A DNA stretch of 44,005 nucleotides from Calditrichia bacterium (GTDB taxonomy: Bacteria; Calditrichota; Calditrichia; Calditrichales; J004). Shown one piece after another: positions 376-30,474 of the stretch. The position numbers and the translations under genes were made by a program. Every line of letters begins with the position of its first letter. The first letter of the stretch is position 1. Below the pieces are notes generated by a model. That model ran no database searches, was not told where the DNA came from, and saw only the letters and a program-made list of their open reading frames with translations. Location: NCBI GenBank assembly GCA_027006055.1, contig JALTKX010000208.1, positions 1 through 44,005 on the forward strand, in the 5' to 3' direction.

Positions 376-792
376 TTAAGGGATAATATCAAAGGAAGGA
401 AATATGCCTAAAAGGTGATCAGAAATTAATTGTTTTACAGATAAAAGGAAGTCATTATCAACCGAACCTATAGGCCATCGAAAATATTCTATTCTTATAG
501 GCTGAAACAAGTGGAGACAAATATGAGATTTTTTATTATAATATTTTTTTTCATCTTCGTTAATCTGACATTTTCCTAATAAAGAGACATGCCACTTAGC
601 TTCATTTACAGATGTTGAACAAGGTACGATATATCGATATGTTCTCTTAGGTATTTTACTATTATATACAACTAAACACATTCGATTTCTTTTGTCTTTT
701 CTATCTGGGTCATCCATTAGAATAGACTTATCATCTAATATCCAAAGTTCACCTGGTAGAGGATTCTTTAATTGTTTTATTTCTTCAATCAT
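376..792 (-). CDS. PemK/MazF-like putative toxin partnered with a Panacea-domain antitoxin
   Basis: 138 aa, 'PGELWILDD...RNRMCLVVYNS...YIVPCST' resembles PemK-like beta-barrel; start abuts the stop of the upstream Panacea gene (TAAATG). Confidence 0.55.
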   Translation of the reverse strand: MIEEIKQLKNPLPGELWILDDKSILMDDPDRKDKRNRMCLVVYNSKIPKRTYRYIVPCSTSVNEAKWHVSLLGKCQINEDEKKYYNKKSHICLHLFQPIRIEYFRWPIGSVDNDFLLSVKQLISDHLLGIFPSFDIIP

Positions 793-1461
793 TTAATACG
801 AAGGGAATTCAGGTCTCATTTTTTCTAAAAATTGAAATTCTTTTTCAGTTATCTCCATTTGTTCGATATCATCATCAGGGAATTTTAGTTTATGTTCATA
901 ATACATTTTTATAGCTGGATTTACACTGGACCTCATCTTTGTCATTGGAATGCAATCTTTTAAAACCATGCCACCAATTTCTTTTTTATAGCCCTGCTCT
1001 ACTTTAGTAAGATAATTCTTAACCGGCAGAGTTTCATAAACAACAGTTTCAATTTCTTTACATGAAAGTGATGCATATTTATCGATAATTTGGGAAAGTA
1101 ATTGAAAGGCTGGATGTGCATCCGAAAGAGAAAACATATTGGTTCTCCTTGCCGGAGAAATTATTATTTTTTCATAATTAAAATCATCCATACCTCGATC
1201 TTTTTTTAGTGCCGCAAGATCAAAAGAACAGATGGAAAATTTTTGCAGCTCAATAAGTTTACTTTTATAATTTGATATAACAGGGCCATGTGGCAGTTTT
1301 ATAAAAAATTCTTTAGTATATCGCTTACCAAAATTTTTTATATGAAAAAACTCAAAAAGATAGGCTAATTTATTTAAATGAAACACTCCAACATTTTTAT
1401 CTCCAGACAATAAGATTATTGAAGCAATTATTTGATTAAGATTAGTTGTTTTTATGTTCAT
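793..1461 (-). CDS. Panacea-domain (SocA/DUF4065-like) antitoxin
   Basis: 222 aa, N-terminal 'LNQIIASIILLSGDKNVGVFHLNKLAYLFEFFHIKNFGKRYTKEFFIKLPHGPV' matches the recalled DUF4065 pattern (KL.YL....h...G......F....HGPV). Confidence 0.7.
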   Translation of the reverse strand: MNIKTTNLNQIIASIILLSGDKNVGVFHLNKLAYLFEFFHIKNFGKRYTKEFFIKLPHGPVISNYKSKLIELQKFSICSFDLAALKKDRGMDDFNYEKIIISPARRTNMFSLSDAHPAFQLLSQIIDKYASLSCKEIETVVYETLPVKNYLTKVEQGYKKEIGGMVLKDCIPMTKMRSSVNPAIKMYYEHKLKFPDDDIEQMEITEKEFQFLEKMRPEFPSY

Positions 1462-5809: not shown

Positions 5810-7405
5810 ATGGCCATATCGGATGAGCAAAAAAGGGAAATTGAACAGGTGATGCACGGACTGACCGGCAAGGCGGCCAAAACGGTGGCGCAACGCCTGG
5901 CGCAGGAAATGGGACTGGACGTCTCGCGGATATACTGGTACTCCCGGCATGTGCGCCCGAAACGCAAGCCGCGGGCGGACAGGGGCGTGCCCCGTTCGGT
6001 AACGGAGGCCGAACTGGAAAAGCTGATGGTGTACACGGTGCAGCATGATTTTTCCGCACCACACCTGGCGGAGGTGGCCGACGCCAACGGCGTGCACATC
6101 CATCCGGCCACCTATAACCGCATCCTGCGCCAGCGGCGTCTTTCCCGGCGGGAGAATAAACAAGACCTGCGCCCCTACCGGCGCTGGGAAGCGGAGCATC
6201 CGAACGACCTGCACCAGATCGACAGCACGGTGGCCCAGCAATTCTATCTGGACGATAACGGCAGCGTGGGGTATGAATCCCCGCATGAACGCTACAAAAA
6301 CAAGCCCGGCAACAAAAAACCGCGCCTGGTGCTGATCCAGGTGGTGGACGACCACAGCCGGGTAAAATGCGCGCTGTTCACCCTGGGCAATCATTACATG
6401 GCCTGGATGCAGACGCTGCATCACGCCTGGAAGAAAAAGGACAACGCGGCCTTTCCCTTTTACGGCCTGCCTCGGGTGCTGTACTCGGATAACGACTCGG
6501 TGATTAAGAGCCGCCGGTTCACCCGGGCCATGGAGAAGCTGGGCGTTACGGTTAAGACGCATAAGGTGCGCGAAAGCCGGGCCAAGGGCAAGGTGGAAAG
6601 CGGTTTTAAGATGCTGCAGGAGTTTGAGAAGGTGACAAAAATAAAAAAATGGGAGAGCCTGGAAGAGGCCAACGCCGCCCTGGAAGATTTCCTGATCTGG
6701 TATAACAGCCGCAAGCACGGAACAACCGGGGAGCGCCCCTTTCAACGCTGGCTGCGCATTGATCCGGCCCGGCTGATCAATACACCGTCGGACGAGCTGT
6801 TCAACCTGCTGCACCTGGATTTTACGACGCGGAAGATTTATCCCGACCTGCATGTGGATATGTTCGGCAAGGAGTTCCAGTTGCCGCGCCGGGAGCCATT
6901 CATTAACTGGATCGGCAAGAAGGTGGAAGTATGCTGGTATCCGCGCGAGACGGAGCGGATTTTTGTGATTATCGAAGACAAGGATTACGAGATCGAATAC
7001 CGCAAGGTGGATATCCACAGCGCCGGAACTTATAAGCATGTGATGAAGCCGGACAATATCAAGCTTAAGGAAAAGATCGAGGCCATGGAGACTCCGGACT
7101 GGAGACTGACCGGTTTTTACGCGGAGAAGTATGGTCAGATGTGGATGCCCAAGGAGGGCCGGGAATTCGACGAGAGCCGCATCATCGAGGCCATGCCGAG
7201 CAAGGGCACGGTGCGCACGGCGGAATGGTTTGTGGCGCGGCTGCAGGAGCGCATGATTTTTGAAGTACCGGTAAGGGCCGAGGAAAAGACTTACGTACAG
7301 CGGTTGTTTGACGGGCGCGTGGAAATGCCGGAGCGGGAGCTGTTGGATGAGATCGACAAGCTGGCGGCGCATCCGGAATTGTTGCGGAAGAAGGATGTGG
7401 GGTGA
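5810..7405 (+). CDS. MuA-like DDE (rve) transposase
   Basis: 531 aa; 'DLHQIDSTVAQQFYL', 'RVLYSDNDSVIKS', 'KGKVESGFKMLQEF' give D-D-E spacing of an rve core; followed by a MuB-like ATPase. Confidence 0.9.
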   Translation: MAISDEQKREIEQVMHGLTGKAAKTVAQRLAQEMGLDVSRIYWYSRHVRPKRKPRADRGVPRSVTEAELEKLMVYTVQHDFSAPHLAEVADANGVHIHPATYNRILRQRRLSRRENKQDLRPYRRWEAEHPNDLHQIDSTVAQQFYLDDNGSVGYESPHERYKNKPGNKKPRLVLIQVVDDHSRVKCALFTLGNHYMAWMQTLHHAWKKKDNAAFPFYGLPRVLYSDNDSVIKSRRFTRAMEKLGVTVKTHKVRESRAKGKVESGFKMLQEFEKVTKIKKWESLEEANAALEDFLIWYNSRKHGTTGERPFQRWLRIDPARLINTPSDELFNLLHLDFTTRKIYPDLHVDMFGKEFQLPRREPFINWIGKKVEVCWYPRETERIFVIIEDKDYEIEYRKVDIHSAGTYKHVMKPDNIKLKEKIEAMETPDWRLTGFYAEKYGQMWMPKEGREFDESRIIEAMPSKGTVRTAEWFVARLQERMIFEVPVRAEEKTYVQRLFDGRVEMPERELLDEIDKLAAHPELLRKKDVG

Positions 7406-7492: not shown

Positions 7493-8632
7493 ATGGAAAG
7501 TGCCGCGCACATCCTGAAGGAGCTGAAGATTAGCCAGGGATGGCTTGCGGAAGGTCTGGGCGTCAGCCGGACGGCGGTGACGCTGCTATTGAATAAGGGT
7601 CAGTGGCCCAAACGGGCACACCGATCCGGGTTGCTGGAACGCCTGCGCGAACGCCTGGAAGAAGGTGGCGCGGGCGCGGGAGATATTGAGCGCATCGAGG
7701 CGCTGTTAACGTCATCGACCGCGGAAGCGGCGATGCATCATTCATTCACACTACTCAAGAAAGGAGTATGTATGTTACCACAAATCGTTCTGGATCGCGC
7801 GGGATTGGAGCGCGACCCCTTTACCAATGAACTGCGCGGCGTGCAGGATGTTTTCGGCAGCCGTCCGCATGATTTTGTGCTGAACAAAATGCTGGACGCG
7901 GCGGCGCATCAGAAGTTCCTTGGGATTTATGGTCCGGTAGGATCGGGAAAGACGGTGATGAAAAACGTTTTTCTGGAGACGCTGCGCAAGGAGAAGAACT
8001 ACATGGTGTCGGAGCCGATCATGATTGAGCGGGCGAAGTGCCGCCCGGGATCGCTTTGCGACGCGATGGTGGAGGACTTTATGTATGGTTTCGGCGGCAT
8101 TTCGTCCCTGGGAAAAATGCGCAGCCCCCGCAGTCTGGAAGGTAAGAATCGTTTGGTACGCGCTATCTTAACCAACCACAGCGAGCAGGGACGGCGCGCG
8201 GTGCTCATTATCGACGAGGCGCATGAGCTTCCCCTCGATACGCTTAAGGCACTCAAGCGCTTTCACGAGCACCAAAACGGCTTCCGCAAGATGCTGTCCA
8301 TCATCATCATCGGTCAGGAAGAGCTTTTTCACGGTCTGAACAAGGATTACCGGGTGCGCGAGGTAACGGCGCGGATAGACCTGGTGGAGCTGCAACCGAT
8401 GCGCAATGTAGTGAAAAACTATTTGTCCTTCAAGATCGATAAGGCGGGCGGCGACGTCAACGCCCTGTTTGACGGCGAGGCGCTGGATATGATTGAACGC
8501 AAGCTGGAACATCCCTCACCCCTGTTGATCAACGTGCTGGCCAGCCACAGCCTGATGACGGCTTACGCCCAGGACAGGCTACCGGCAACGGGAGCGATGG
8601 TGGAAGAGGCATACCGGAAGATGGCCTCATGA
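7493..8632 (+). CDS. MuB-like AAA ATPase / target-DNA activator with N-terminal HTH
   Basis: 379 aa; N-terminal HTH 'KISQGWLAEGLGVSRTAVTLLLNKG', Walker A GPVGSGKT, Walker B VLIIDEAHEL. Confidence 0.9.
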   Translation: MESAAHILKELKISQGWLAEGLGVSRTAVTLLLNKGQWPKRAHRSGLLERLRERLEEGGAGAGDIERIEALLTSSTAEAAMHHSFTLLKKGVCMLPQIVLDRAGLERDPFTNELRGVQDVFGSRPHDFVLNKMLDAAAHQKFLGIYGPVGSGKTVMKNVFLETLRKEKNYMVSEPIMIERAKCRPGSLCDAMVEDFMYGFGGISSLGKMRSPRSLEGKNRLVRAILTNHSEQGRRAVLIIDEAHELPLDTLKALKRFHEHQNGFRKMLSIIIIGQEELFHGLNKDYRVREVTARIDLVELQPMRNVVKNYLSFKIDKAGGDVNALFDGEALDMIERKLEHPSPLLINVLASHSLMTAYAQDRLPATGAMVEEAYRKMAS

Positions 8633-26427: not shown

Positions 26428-26856
26428 ATGGAAGAAGGCAAGGAATTCCGCATCGGCGGGAAGAAATATCGCACCCAGGAACTGACCATTGAGCAGGATG
26501 AACTGCTGATGGATGTGCTGAAGGATGTGCTGAAGGATATTAACCTGGACAAAATGATAGATACGGATGTGACGGTAATCTTCCGGGCCATCGCCCAAAA
26601 GCGGCTATTGCGCCGGGCGCTGAGCATTATTCTGATACCGGTTAATTCCGAATTCAGCGCCAAGAAGCTGAAAGAGGTGGAGCATGATATGGCCAAATGT
26701 TCCAACAGCATCGCGCTGGAGGCGCTTAAGGATTTTTTGCAACTAAACGCCGGGTGGGTCGATTTGTTGATAGACACTTTCCCGCAACTTCCGGAGGTGG
26801 GCAAAGAGATGGCCAAACTGGCGCCGGAGACGAGCGATACAGCCGAACCCAACTGA
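26428..26856 (+). CDS. Tail assembly chaperone, short form
   Basis: 142 aa, between tail tube and tape measure. Confidence 0.65.
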   Translation: MEEGKEFRIGGKKYRTQELTIEQDELLMDVLKDVLKDINLDKMIDTDVTVIFRAIAQKRLLRRALSIILIPVNSEFSAKKLKEVEHDMAKCSNSIALEALKDFLQLNAGWVDLLIDTFPQLPEVGKEMAKLAPETSDTAEPN

Positions 26857-27164
26857 TCTATCTGCTATGCAACGGTGATATCGGCCGCCGCCATGAGGCG
26901 CGAAAAATGCCCCTGATGGAAGCGGTAATGTGGCTGGCCTGTCGCTTTGAGGAAGAAGAACGTCACGACCGGTTCCAGGCGGCGGTGCACGGCGCGGAGA
27001 TGAAGAAAAGTAAAGGCGGCCATCCGCCAAAAAAGGCCGGGCTCAGGGATATGATGGGCATGCTGCAGAACGCCAGCCGGGGTCAAACGGGCATTGGCGT
27101 GGAGCGGGTGAAAGTGAGTCCGGAGGAACTGGCCCGGAGACGACAAATGAACAATGACAAATGA
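26733..27164 (+). CDS. -1 frame extension of the tail assembly chaperone (frameshift product)
   Basis: In-phase slippery T_TTT_TTG at 26733-26739; the -1 frame is open from there to 27164. Confidence 0.6.
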   Translation, partial: FFATKRRVGRFVDRHFPATSGGGQRDGQTGAGDERYSRTQLIYLLCNGDIGRRHEARKMPLMEAVMWLACRFEEEERHDRFQAAVHGAEMKKSKGGHPPKKAGLRDMMGMLQNASRGQTGIGVERVKVSPEELARRRQMNNDK

Positions 27165-27171
27165 ACAATGA

Positions 27172-27186
27172 CCCGCCTGAGGCGGG
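27172..27186. repeat. Hairpin CCCGCC-TGA-GGCGGG with adjacent repeated ACAAATGA/AACAATGA motifs
   Basis: Read directly. Confidence 0.6.
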
Positions 27187-27212
27187 GGCAGGCAAATGAC
27201 AAAGGAGGTCTG

Positions 27213-27413
27213 ATGGATCTGGATAATATTTTTAAGTATCACCCGCCCAAGGGCGACCAGCCCGAACGGTATGAGAAGATACGCGCGGCGGCAAAAGAGT
27301 TTGCCGAAGTGATTAACGCCTGTTGTCCGGACAGCGCGGACAAAACGGCAGCCATTCGCAAATTGCGTGAAGCGGTTATGACGGCCAATGCCAGCATAGC
27401 CCTTAACGAGTAA
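27213..27413 (+). CDS. acb2-like: Acb2/Tad1-hairpin-family protein (putative cyclic-nucleotide sponge, anti-CBASS/Thoeris)
   Basis: 66 aa MDLDNIFKYHPPKGDQPERYEKIRAAAKEFAEVINACCPDSADKTAAIRKLREAVMTANASIALNE; fits the recalled Acb2 pattern 'HPP..Q..RYE.IR...K..A..I...CP.S.....A...L..AVM.ANA.IA'. SD AAAGGAGG. Confidence 0.75.
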   Translation: MDLDNIFKYHPPKGDQPERYEKIRAAAKEFAEVINACCPDSADKTAAIRKLREAVMTANASIALNE

Positions 27414-27515
27414 CAGGACCGGAAATCCTGAAAAGCGATGAAGCACGGGGAGCGTAACGAGCCGTGTGGAGCAAGATGACAACGGGGAACAGCGTGGGTA
27501 CGACACGGCTGTTCC
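27414..27515 (+). ncRNA. Cluster of three consecutive stem-loops (structured intergenic RNA or attenuator)
   Basis: CAGGA-ccggaaa-TCCTG; CACGG-N13-CCGTG; GGAACAGC...GCTGTTCC followed by ATTTTAT. Confidence 0.35.
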
Positions 27516-27543
27516 ATTTTATCAGACTTAAAAAGGAGGCCTT

Positions 27544-27870
27544 ATGTTTTTGGGCATACGATATAATGTTTGGCATGGCATATTGGTTCAGCCGGTTGTG
27601 GCTGTTGTTTTTGTTCTTGTTTGGTATCCCCTGAGCGGCTATGTGCCCGCGCCCTGGTTGTTTTTACTGGCCTGGGTTTTAGGCATGTTTGTGGCGCATC
27701 ATCTGCAATCGTGGAACGAGGCGCGCCAGGCGATTGATCCGAAAGTGGAAGCCAGATACGGCAGTTATCCGGGTTTTCAGGATAACAGCCGGGATGACTG
27801 GCGCTGGTTTTGGCGCGGCATCCTGGTAAGCTGGGTTCTTCCCATCCTCATCATTATACAGTGGGGATAG
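27544..27870 (+). CDS. Multi-pass membrane protein (possible holin)
   Basis: 108 aa, about three TM segments. Confidence 0.5.
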   Translation: MFLGIRYNVWHGILVQPVVAVVFVLVWYPLSGYVPAPWLFLLAWVLGMFVAHHLQSWNEARQAIDPKVEARYGSYPGFQDNSRDDWRWFWRGILVSWVLPILIIIQWG

Positions 27871-27873
27871 AAC

Positions 27874-30474
27874 ATGACCGTAGGTGAGTTGGTAGCCCGG
27901 TTGCGGATAAAGGGCGGCGAAGAGTTTGTCCGTAAATTCAAAAGTATAAGCGACCGGTCAAAAAAAGCGGTTGACAACCTGAAAAAAAGCTGGTTGGGGC
28001 TTTCGGTAAAAATCACCGGCGCATCTTATGCCGTTGACCGGTTTGTTTCTTCTTACGCCAATTTCGATAACAGCATCCGGGAAATAGGCACATTGCTGGA
28101 CAATGTAACCGAGCGTTCCATTGTGCGCATGGGACGCCAGGTGAAAAAAATGGCTATCGAGTACGGCCAGTCGCTGGTGTCCATGGCCAAGGCCCGTTAT
28201 GATATTATCAGCGCCGGGTTCAAGAGGATGGCCGGATCGATGAAGGTGCTGGCGGCCTCGGCCAAGCTGGCCATCGGCGGCGTCTCCACCGTGGCGCAAA
28301 CCGCCCTTTCGCTCACCAAAACACTTAACTCCTTCCGCCTGGGCGCGGATAAAGCCGGTATGGCGGCGGACATTATGTTCACCACCGTGCGGTTGGGACA
28401 AACCACCATTGATCAACTTGTAGGGGTGCTGGGCAACGTGACCGCCATCGCCCATAAGGCCCGCCTGGGCCTGCTCGGCCTGGGCGCGTCCATGGCCGTA
28501 TTGACCGCGGGCGGACTGTCCACGGAAACCTCGGCCATATCCCTGCGCGGGGCATTGCTGGCGATCAGCGCCCCCTCCGAGAGCGCGGCCAAGGCCATGC
28601 GCGAGGCCGGAATTGAAGTGCGCTATCTGAACGACGGCACCCTGGACATTGTGGAAACCATGCGCCAGTTCCAGGGCATTGATCTGAAAACCCTGAGCAA
28701 GTTTATCCCCGACGTGCGGGCGGCCAATGCCGTGGCTATTATGTCCGACAATGTGGATAAGCTGGCGGAAGCGATCCGGGAGATGCGCAACTCATCCGGG
28801 GCGGCCGACCGGGCATTCCAGAAGATGGCCAAGGGCGCCAAGTTCCGCATCGATCAGATCAAGACCAAGTTTAGTGCCGCTTTTACGGAGATTGGTAAAG
28901 GGCTGCTACCTTTATATGAAGTTGCCTTAGCCTTTTTAGAGGTGTTTGCAGATCTGCCCGAAACATTAAAGGTGGTCGTAGTTAATGTTGCCGCGTTGAC
29001 CGTAGCTTTTACCGCCCTAAGAACCATACTTATAGCCGTGGGCATAGCCACCGGGCCGATCGGCTGGATCGTTGCCGGAGCAACAATTCTTGCCGGAGTT
29101 CTGGGGGTAATGAGTTCGGAAACAGATAAAGCCGCGGAGTCCATGGATAAACTGTCCGACGCCAATGAACGCATGGCGCGCTCCCTGAAAAAGATAGGCG
29201 AGGAAACAAAAAAAGAAGCCGTAGGGATGACCATTGAAGAGCTGCAGGCCAAGCAAAAGGCCATTATTGACATAATAGATAAACAAGCGCGCATTCAGGA
29301 AAATACAAGAGCGCGGATGAAAAATGCCGCTACGGATAACAGTAAAAAGTTTTATGAAAAAGCCATCCAGGCCGGGGAAAATTATATAGCATTAAAGCGC
29401 CGGGAATTAAGCGAAATCACGCAAATACTTAATGACCGTAAACAGCGGCTAAAAAAAGAACAGGAAGAAGAGACCGGACAGGAGCAGGAATTTCTTAACC
29501 GGCAAAAGGAATTGCAGTTCCAGTTCGGGGAAATTTCCCTGCGGGAATACACGGATTATCTGCGCTCCCGGCTGTCCGCGCTGGACAAACACAGCACGGA
29601 ATATCTGGATATCTATTATGAGATTAAGCGGCTGGAGAAAGAGGCGGATGACGCGGCCCTGCGGGATAAGGAAGAGTCGGAAAGCCGCCGTCTGCAATTG
29701 GAGCGCGCCTGGATGGCCCAGCGCTTTTCCCTGGGGAAGATCGGCAGCGATCAGTATCTGAACTTTTTAAGGGAGCGGCTGTCGCAGACGGAAAGATTCT
29801 CCGCCGAGTACCTGGCATTGTGGGGAGAAATACAGCGCATTGAGCAAAGCCGGACAAAACAGCATTTGGATAACCTGCGCAATATGTACCGGCAAACAGC
29901 CGGTGAAATCCGGGGCGCGGTAGGCAATATACTGGGAGCCATGCTTAATGATATCCGGGATAAAACGCAGGGCATGCGTAACTTCTGGAAAACATTGTTG
30001 GTGGAGATACTGGATTATATCGAGCGAAAATTCGTGCTGGCCAAGCTCAACAGCCTGATTGAGGCGGCGCTGACGGGCGGTGCATCCCTGGCCAAGGATA
30101 TTCCCCTATTGGCCACGGCGGCCGGGGCGCTGGAAGCGGCCAAGGCGTTTATTTCCAGCTATGCCGAGGGGGGCGTGGTAACCCGTCCTACCCTGGCGTT
30201 GTTGGGCGACCGGGTGATAGCCGGCCGGGTAGAGCCAGAGATCGTGGCCCCACAACAGAAGTTTGAACAGTTTGCCAGCCGGTTGCTGGGCACGGGCGCG
30301 ACCGAGGGGTCAACCCGACGGACGGAAGTGATTGTGAACCAGAATTTCAACACGCCGCTACAGGATAAGCGCATGGCGCAGAAAATGACGGATGAGGTTT
30401 TGCGGCCGCAGATGACGCGGGCGCTGAAACGGGGCGGCCGGTTCATTAACAGGGATCCTTTTACGGAGCGATAA
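27874..30474 (+). CDS. Tail tape measure protein
   Basis: 866 aa; N-terminal 'VGELVARLRIKGGEEFVRKF', long helices, hydrophobic segments, C-terminal 'SYAEGGVVTRPTLALLGDRV'. Confidence 0.85.
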   Translation: MTVGELVARLRIKGGEEFVRKFKSISDRSKKAVDNLKKSWLGLSVKITGASYAVDRFVSSYANFDNSIREIGTLLDNVTERSIVRMGRQVKKMAIEYGQSLVSMAKARYDIISAGFKRMAGSMKVLAASAKLAIGGVSTVAQTALSLTKTLNSFRLGADKAGMAADIMFTTVRLGQTTIDQLVGVLGNVTAIAHKARLGLLGLGASMAVLTAGGLSTETSAISLRGALLAISAPSESAAKAMREAGIEVRYLNDGTLDIVETMRQFQGIDLKTLSKFIPDVRAANAVAIMSDNVDKLAEAIREMRNSSGAADRAFQKMAKGAKFRIDQIKTKFSAAFTEIGKGLLPLYEVALAFLEVFADLPETLKVVVVNVAALTVAFTALRTILIAVGIATGPIGWIVAGATILAGVLGVMSSETDKAAESMDKLSDANERMARSLKKIGEETKKEAVGMTIEELQAKQKAIIDIIDKQARIQENTRARMKNAATDNSKKFYEKAIQAGENYIALKRRELSEITQILNDRKQRLKKEQEEETGQEQEFLNRQKELQFQFGEISLREYTDYLRSRLSALDKHSTEYLDIYYEIKRLEKEADDAALRDKEESESRRLQLERAWMAQRFSLGKIGSDQYLNFLRERLSQTERFSAEYLALWGEIQRIEQSRTKQHLDNLRNMYRQTAGEIRGAVGNILGAMLNDIRDKTQGMRNFWKTLLVEILDYIERKFVLAKLNSLIEAALTGGASLAKDIPLLATAAGALEAAKAFISSYAEGGVVTRPTLALLGDRVIAGRVEPEIVAPQQKFEQFASRLLGTGATEGSTRRTEVIVNQNFNTPLQDKRMAQKMTDEVLRPQMTRALKRGGRFINRDPFTER

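Follow-up and report, generated by a model that had tools for sequence, protein, structure and literature searches.

The window, a contig of 44,005 nucleotides analysed over its full length, carries a transposable tailed phage, as the preliminary description had proposed: a transposase is encoded at 5810 and a DNA transposition protein at 7493. Other phage genes encode terminase (16229), portal (18545), protease (20942), major head protein (22678) and a neck/HK97-gp10-like protein (24729). The gene studied here is an ORF at 27213–27413 on the + strand that encodes a protein of 66 aa (MDLDNIFKYHPPKGDQPERYEKIRAAAKEFAEVINACCPDSADKTAAIRKLREAVMTANASIALNE). It sits in the late structural operon, with HK97-gp10-like and tail-type genes upstream and the tape measure gene downstream (27874..30474, +; phrog_991, 4.5e-43; PF10145), and its assignment to the tail operon was thereby borne out. 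Just before it lie two overlapping ORFs (26428–26856 and 26754–27164; together 26428..27164, +) for which Pfam and PHROG gave no significant family match; judged solely by position, the pair may stand where a frameshifted tail assembly chaperone pair is usually encoded. Between the 66-aa gene and the tape measure gene lies a gene for a hydrophobic protein of 108 aa with two likely membrane spans (27544..27870, +), which matched neither Pfam nor PHROG.

The ATG at 27213 is preceded by a Shine–Dalgarno site, AAAGGAGGT (27201..27209, +), which was graded strong. An alternative in-frame start at 27168 would lengthen the ORF; we preferred 27213 because of the placement of the Shine–Dalgarno site. 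Comparison with the closest relative (L001; 78% amino acid identity) gave pN 0.135 and pS 0.882, which indicates strong purifying selection on the 66-aa protein; comparison with a further relative (L006) gave pN 0.176 and pS 0.78. Together with relatives in many unrelated phages, these observations show that the gene is real, as the preliminary description had it. The GC content is continuous across the gene, with no break, and a scan for sigma-70 promoters found none near it. A perfect hairpin, CCCGCC-TGA-GGCGGG, is present just 5′ of the gene at 27172–27186. Downstream, a stem-loop (GGAACAGC...GCTGTTCC, then ATTTTAT; 27486..27520, +) could possibly serve as a terminator before the next gene: folding of the RNA from 27413 to 27543 gave z = −2.1, and a consensus scan did not call the stem-loop as a terminator.

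To place the protein in a family, we searched it with PF24729, the Acb2/Tad1 hairpin domain. It scored 67.4 bits (E 1.3e-18; profile positions 1–57 of 58) at a curated cut-off of 27 bits; with the same model, T4 Acb2 (Vs.4) scored 71.4 bits and PaMx33-type Acb2 66.1 bits. The protein also matched phrog_1454 (2.4e-21), a PHROG family with no assigned function. As a check independent of Pfam, T4 Acb2 served as the sole starting query of an iterative profile search against every ORF in the phage loci retrieved, together with one shuffled copy of each. Round 1 brought in PaMx33-type Acb2 (2.4e-15) and round 2 hairpins of the L019 type (3e-5); the window protein followed in round 3 (9.5e-7) and had improved to 6e-16 by round 5. 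The best shuffled decoy had an E of 0.7 or worse. The reverse search, started from the window protein, stalled at E ∼0.02 for T4 and did not reach PaMx33-type Acb2, and a direct hhalign comparison of the window protein's clade with the PaMx33-type group was weak (2.4%). The relation to Acb2 is therefore real but distant, and the homology claim rests on Pfam and on the intermediate-sequence search. PDB sequences, searched with the single sequence and with a profile, gave no significant match, the sole match being 9ptq, 'Acb2 homolog 43', at E 0.96, and no PADLOC model matched the protein. Taken together, the protein almost certainly belongs to the Acb2/Tad1 hairpin family, in line with the preliminary description, and is a distant new member of the Acb2 family already known from phages.

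Relatives of the protein were found in 116 viral contigs and 131 phage records. Among them, the predicted hairpin proteins of Mycobacterium phage Phabba, Brevibacillus phage SecTim467 and Lactococcus phage 1706 are 45–61% identical to it; those of Phabba and 1706 share its predicted fold (BFVD TM 0.92–0.94), and the Phabba protein is longer (142 aa versus 66 aa). Relatives of ∼68 aa in Paenibacillus and Brevibacillus phages are annotated 'putative phosphomannomutase' (e.g. KT151957.1, 83112–83318; L104:2992–3198), apparently a copied misannotation of hairpin-domain proteins. Among the bacterial genomes that were searched, members of the window protein's clade were few. PF24729 was absent from all of the 97 other genomes tested. 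In the GTDB collection, close relatives occurred in just two loci, both from Acidobacteriota (Acidicapsa dinghuensis, L474:5001–5183; an Acidobacteria MAG, L475:228–422), and viral contigs hold more than 100.

The protomer of Acb2 consists of one short and two long helices (PMC12043709, PMC10419184). The AlphaFold2 model of the 66-aa protein (pLDDT 94.9) predicts this same layout, with a short helix at residues 3–7 and long helices at 16–37 and 42–65. In a Foldseek search of the PDB with the model, the best match was T4 Vs.4 with cGAMP (TM 0.70, probability 0.84), which at E 1.4 is not significant alone. Viral predicted structures of PF24729 matched the model at TM 0.9, a result that is not independent of Pfam. 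Chains of Tad1 also appeared, low down in the Foldseek list, and Pfam assigns Tad1's hairpin to PF24729 as well; both points bear on whether the protein could instead sequester gcADPR and so act against Thoeris, as had been proposed earlier. The likeness to Tad1 (Clostridium botulinum prophage; PDB 7UAV/7UAW) is confined to the two-helix hairpin, however: the N-terminal β-sheet domain that Tad1 uses for gcADPR is absent from the all-helical model. The genomic distribution likewise speaks on both sides: of 40 genomes of the class, 9 have ThsB_TIR, but the family to which the window's genome belongs yielded neither ThsB_TIR nor TIR_2. The anti-Thoeris proposal is therefore unsupported, and a Tad1-like role appears highly improbable.

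Compared with T4 Acb2 (Vs.4; PDB 7UQ2), the window protein has the same Pfam domain, helix layout and pocket tyrosine (Y8 in T4, Y9 here) and a similar C-terminal TKLxEA-like helix, in addition to the top fold match, but its hairpin is ∼20 residues shorter, the identity is ∼23%, and T68, W76 and F82 correspond to R49, T57 and A63. With PaMx33-type Acb2 (PDB 8H2J; relatives in Ph_15, Ps60 and GAP32) it shares the Pfam domain, the tyrosine (Y11 = Y9) and the alanine in place of F82 (A88 = A63) at 12–22% identity, whereas K26 and R67, both invariant within the PaMx33 group, correspond to R24 and A42. The short length of the protein is no obstacle to an Acb2 reading, because forms of 74 aa exist among the close relatives of PaMx33 Acb2.

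How far the binding residues are preserved can be judged from these alignments. We take K26 and R67 of PaMx33 Acb2 to contact the ligand, as the lysine of the dinucleotide pocket and the arginine of the trinucleotide site, respectively; the arginine is not a feature of the whole family. T4 Acb2 likewise lacks an Arg at the position of A42. R24 (codon 27282..27284, +), aligned with T4 K23 and PaMx33 K26, is a conservative change that keeps a basic residue. Y9 (codon 27237..27239, +), which by alignment would lie in the cyclic dinucleotide pocket, is >90% conserved within the window protein's clade. In T4 Acb2, Y8A abolishes function, and both Y8A and F82C destroy it in a Panoptes assay (PMC12657218, PMC12657230); T68M was reported to lower binding (PMC12657230). 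The T68 position is R49 in the window protein's clade, and T68 itself is not known to be essential family-wide; R49 therefore weakens the claim of an identical ligand profile and leaves family membership untouched. The expectation that the nucleotide-binding residues are preserved thus held for Y9 and failed at R49 and A42, with a conservative change at R24. The predicted binding residues are only partly preserved, with the tyrosine kept, one residue conservatively changed and one turned into Arg.

R49 is one of four residues that set the clade apart. Codons 42–57 in the last helix (27336..27383, +) carry A42, R49, R52 and T57, which replace R, T, E or Q, and W, A or S. Of 375 unique hairpins, 246 have the combination R-T-E/Q-W/A/S at these positions and 69 have A/P-R-R-T, with few mixtures; since the sampling was partly driven by searches with the window protein, these proportions are not natural frequencies. 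The window protein is a member of the A-R-R-T clade, and the SecTim467 and 1706 proteins lack the full set. On a tree built without the four columns, which was poorly resolved, the two residue states need 5 changes, compared with 51–62 for shuffled labels. With ideal helix geometry, the four positions fall within ∼140° of one helix face. Since the pocket residues of the last helix are not those of T4 and PaMx33 Acb2, the switch suggests a changed ligand preference relative to these proteins.

Two further steps can be taken from here. The first is that the clade is a sponge subfamily in which one helix face was exchanged as a unit, with a new specificity for a signal for which no sponge is known so far; we regard this as speculative. 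The second is that the hairpin fold is kept but has been rebuilt for a different signal (for example another cyclic tri- or tetranucleotide, or a nucleotide outside CBASS), so that the protein would be a sponge ineffective against classical 3′,3′-cGAMP CBASS. The coordinated change at four sites with few mixtures, its low cost on the tree and the coincidence of position 49 with T4 T68, where T68M lowers binding (PMC12657230), all point this way. The retained pocket tyrosine and the basic residue at position 24 point the other way; moreover, clade-wide changes may also be packing changes, and the window protein itself was the query through which the clade was sampled. On balance, such a rebuilt hairpin seems unlikely.

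The operon position raised a different explanation, namely that the protein helps to build the tail, structurally or during assembly, and has nothing but the hairpin fold in common with the sponges. That it is encoded after the presumed chaperone pair and before the tape measure gene fits such a role. However, across 80 loci that carry close relatives, one capsid gene was the only other window gene to recur; there is thus no conserved neighborhood that could be used as evidence, and the gene moves alone among unrelated phages. Elsewhere, relatives adjoin GroES-like, recombination, RNA ligase, RNase H or uncharacterised phage genes, and the family that the protein matches consists of sponges. 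A tail function is accordingly very unlikely. Moreover, the late-operon position has a precedent: in Ps60, a B3-like transposable Pseudomonas phage (Beetrevirus), an acb2 relative of the PaMx33 type likewise belongs to the late operon, with the capsid gene on one side and the tail genes on the other.

Phages are known to use proteins of the Acb2 family to sequester the cyclic nucleotides with which bacterial immunity raises its alarm. By analogy with these proteins, we propose the following mechanism. The 66-aa helical hairpin would be expressed from the late operon of the transposable phage and would assemble into a small oligomer, probably a hexamer. Cyclic oligonucleotides would be bound at pockets between the protomers, so that CBASS, or other CD-NTase or Cas10 signalling, would lose its second messenger before the effector is switched on. 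That the protein is some kind of cyclic-nucleotide sponge is very probable. That it is a minimal Acb2-type cyclic-oligonucleotide sponge working as proposed is quite likely, and that it would block CBASS-type signals is likely; the hexamer, the ligand binding and the anti-CBASS effect are all put forward by analogy. Its preferred ligands are probably not quite those of T4 or PaMx33 Acb2. Acb4 of SPO1 would be comparable in its function as a cyclic-nucleotide sponge but has an unrelated fold, a tetramer with β-strands.

The preliminary description had suggested that the host lineage uses cyclic-nucleotide defence. We judged host defence from family searches, the genome of the window being 86% complete. 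In that genome, neither a SMODS CD-NTase nor a strong Cas10 was found, and Panoptes (mCpol) was not found in its family. Within the genus, the suggestion found support. In one genome (G001), a CD-NTase (PADLOC Cyclase, 3.9e-163) adjoins a patatin-type phospholipase (L085:652–2897, −); this pair has the layout of type I CBASS and is CBASS-like. A second genome of the genus (G002) has a strong Cas10. Cyclic-nucleotide defence is thus seen in the genus and was not detected as a SMODS CD-NTase in the window's own, 86% complete genome. The CBASS-like pair itself adjoins a type I restriction specificity gene.

By these results, a predicted Acb2-type sponge is present in a transposable phage from a little-studied bacterial class, in which a genome of the same genus carries the CD-NTase/phospholipase pair. 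They also point to a large clade of predicted sponges in uncultured phages, with a pocket that differs from those of the characterised sponges compared here. The most interesting aspect of the 66-aa protein is this testable pocket difference. At the left end of the window (376–1461, −), a PemK/MazF-like protein adjoins a SocA/Panacea antitoxin-type protein, and the two may form a toxin–antitoxin pair.
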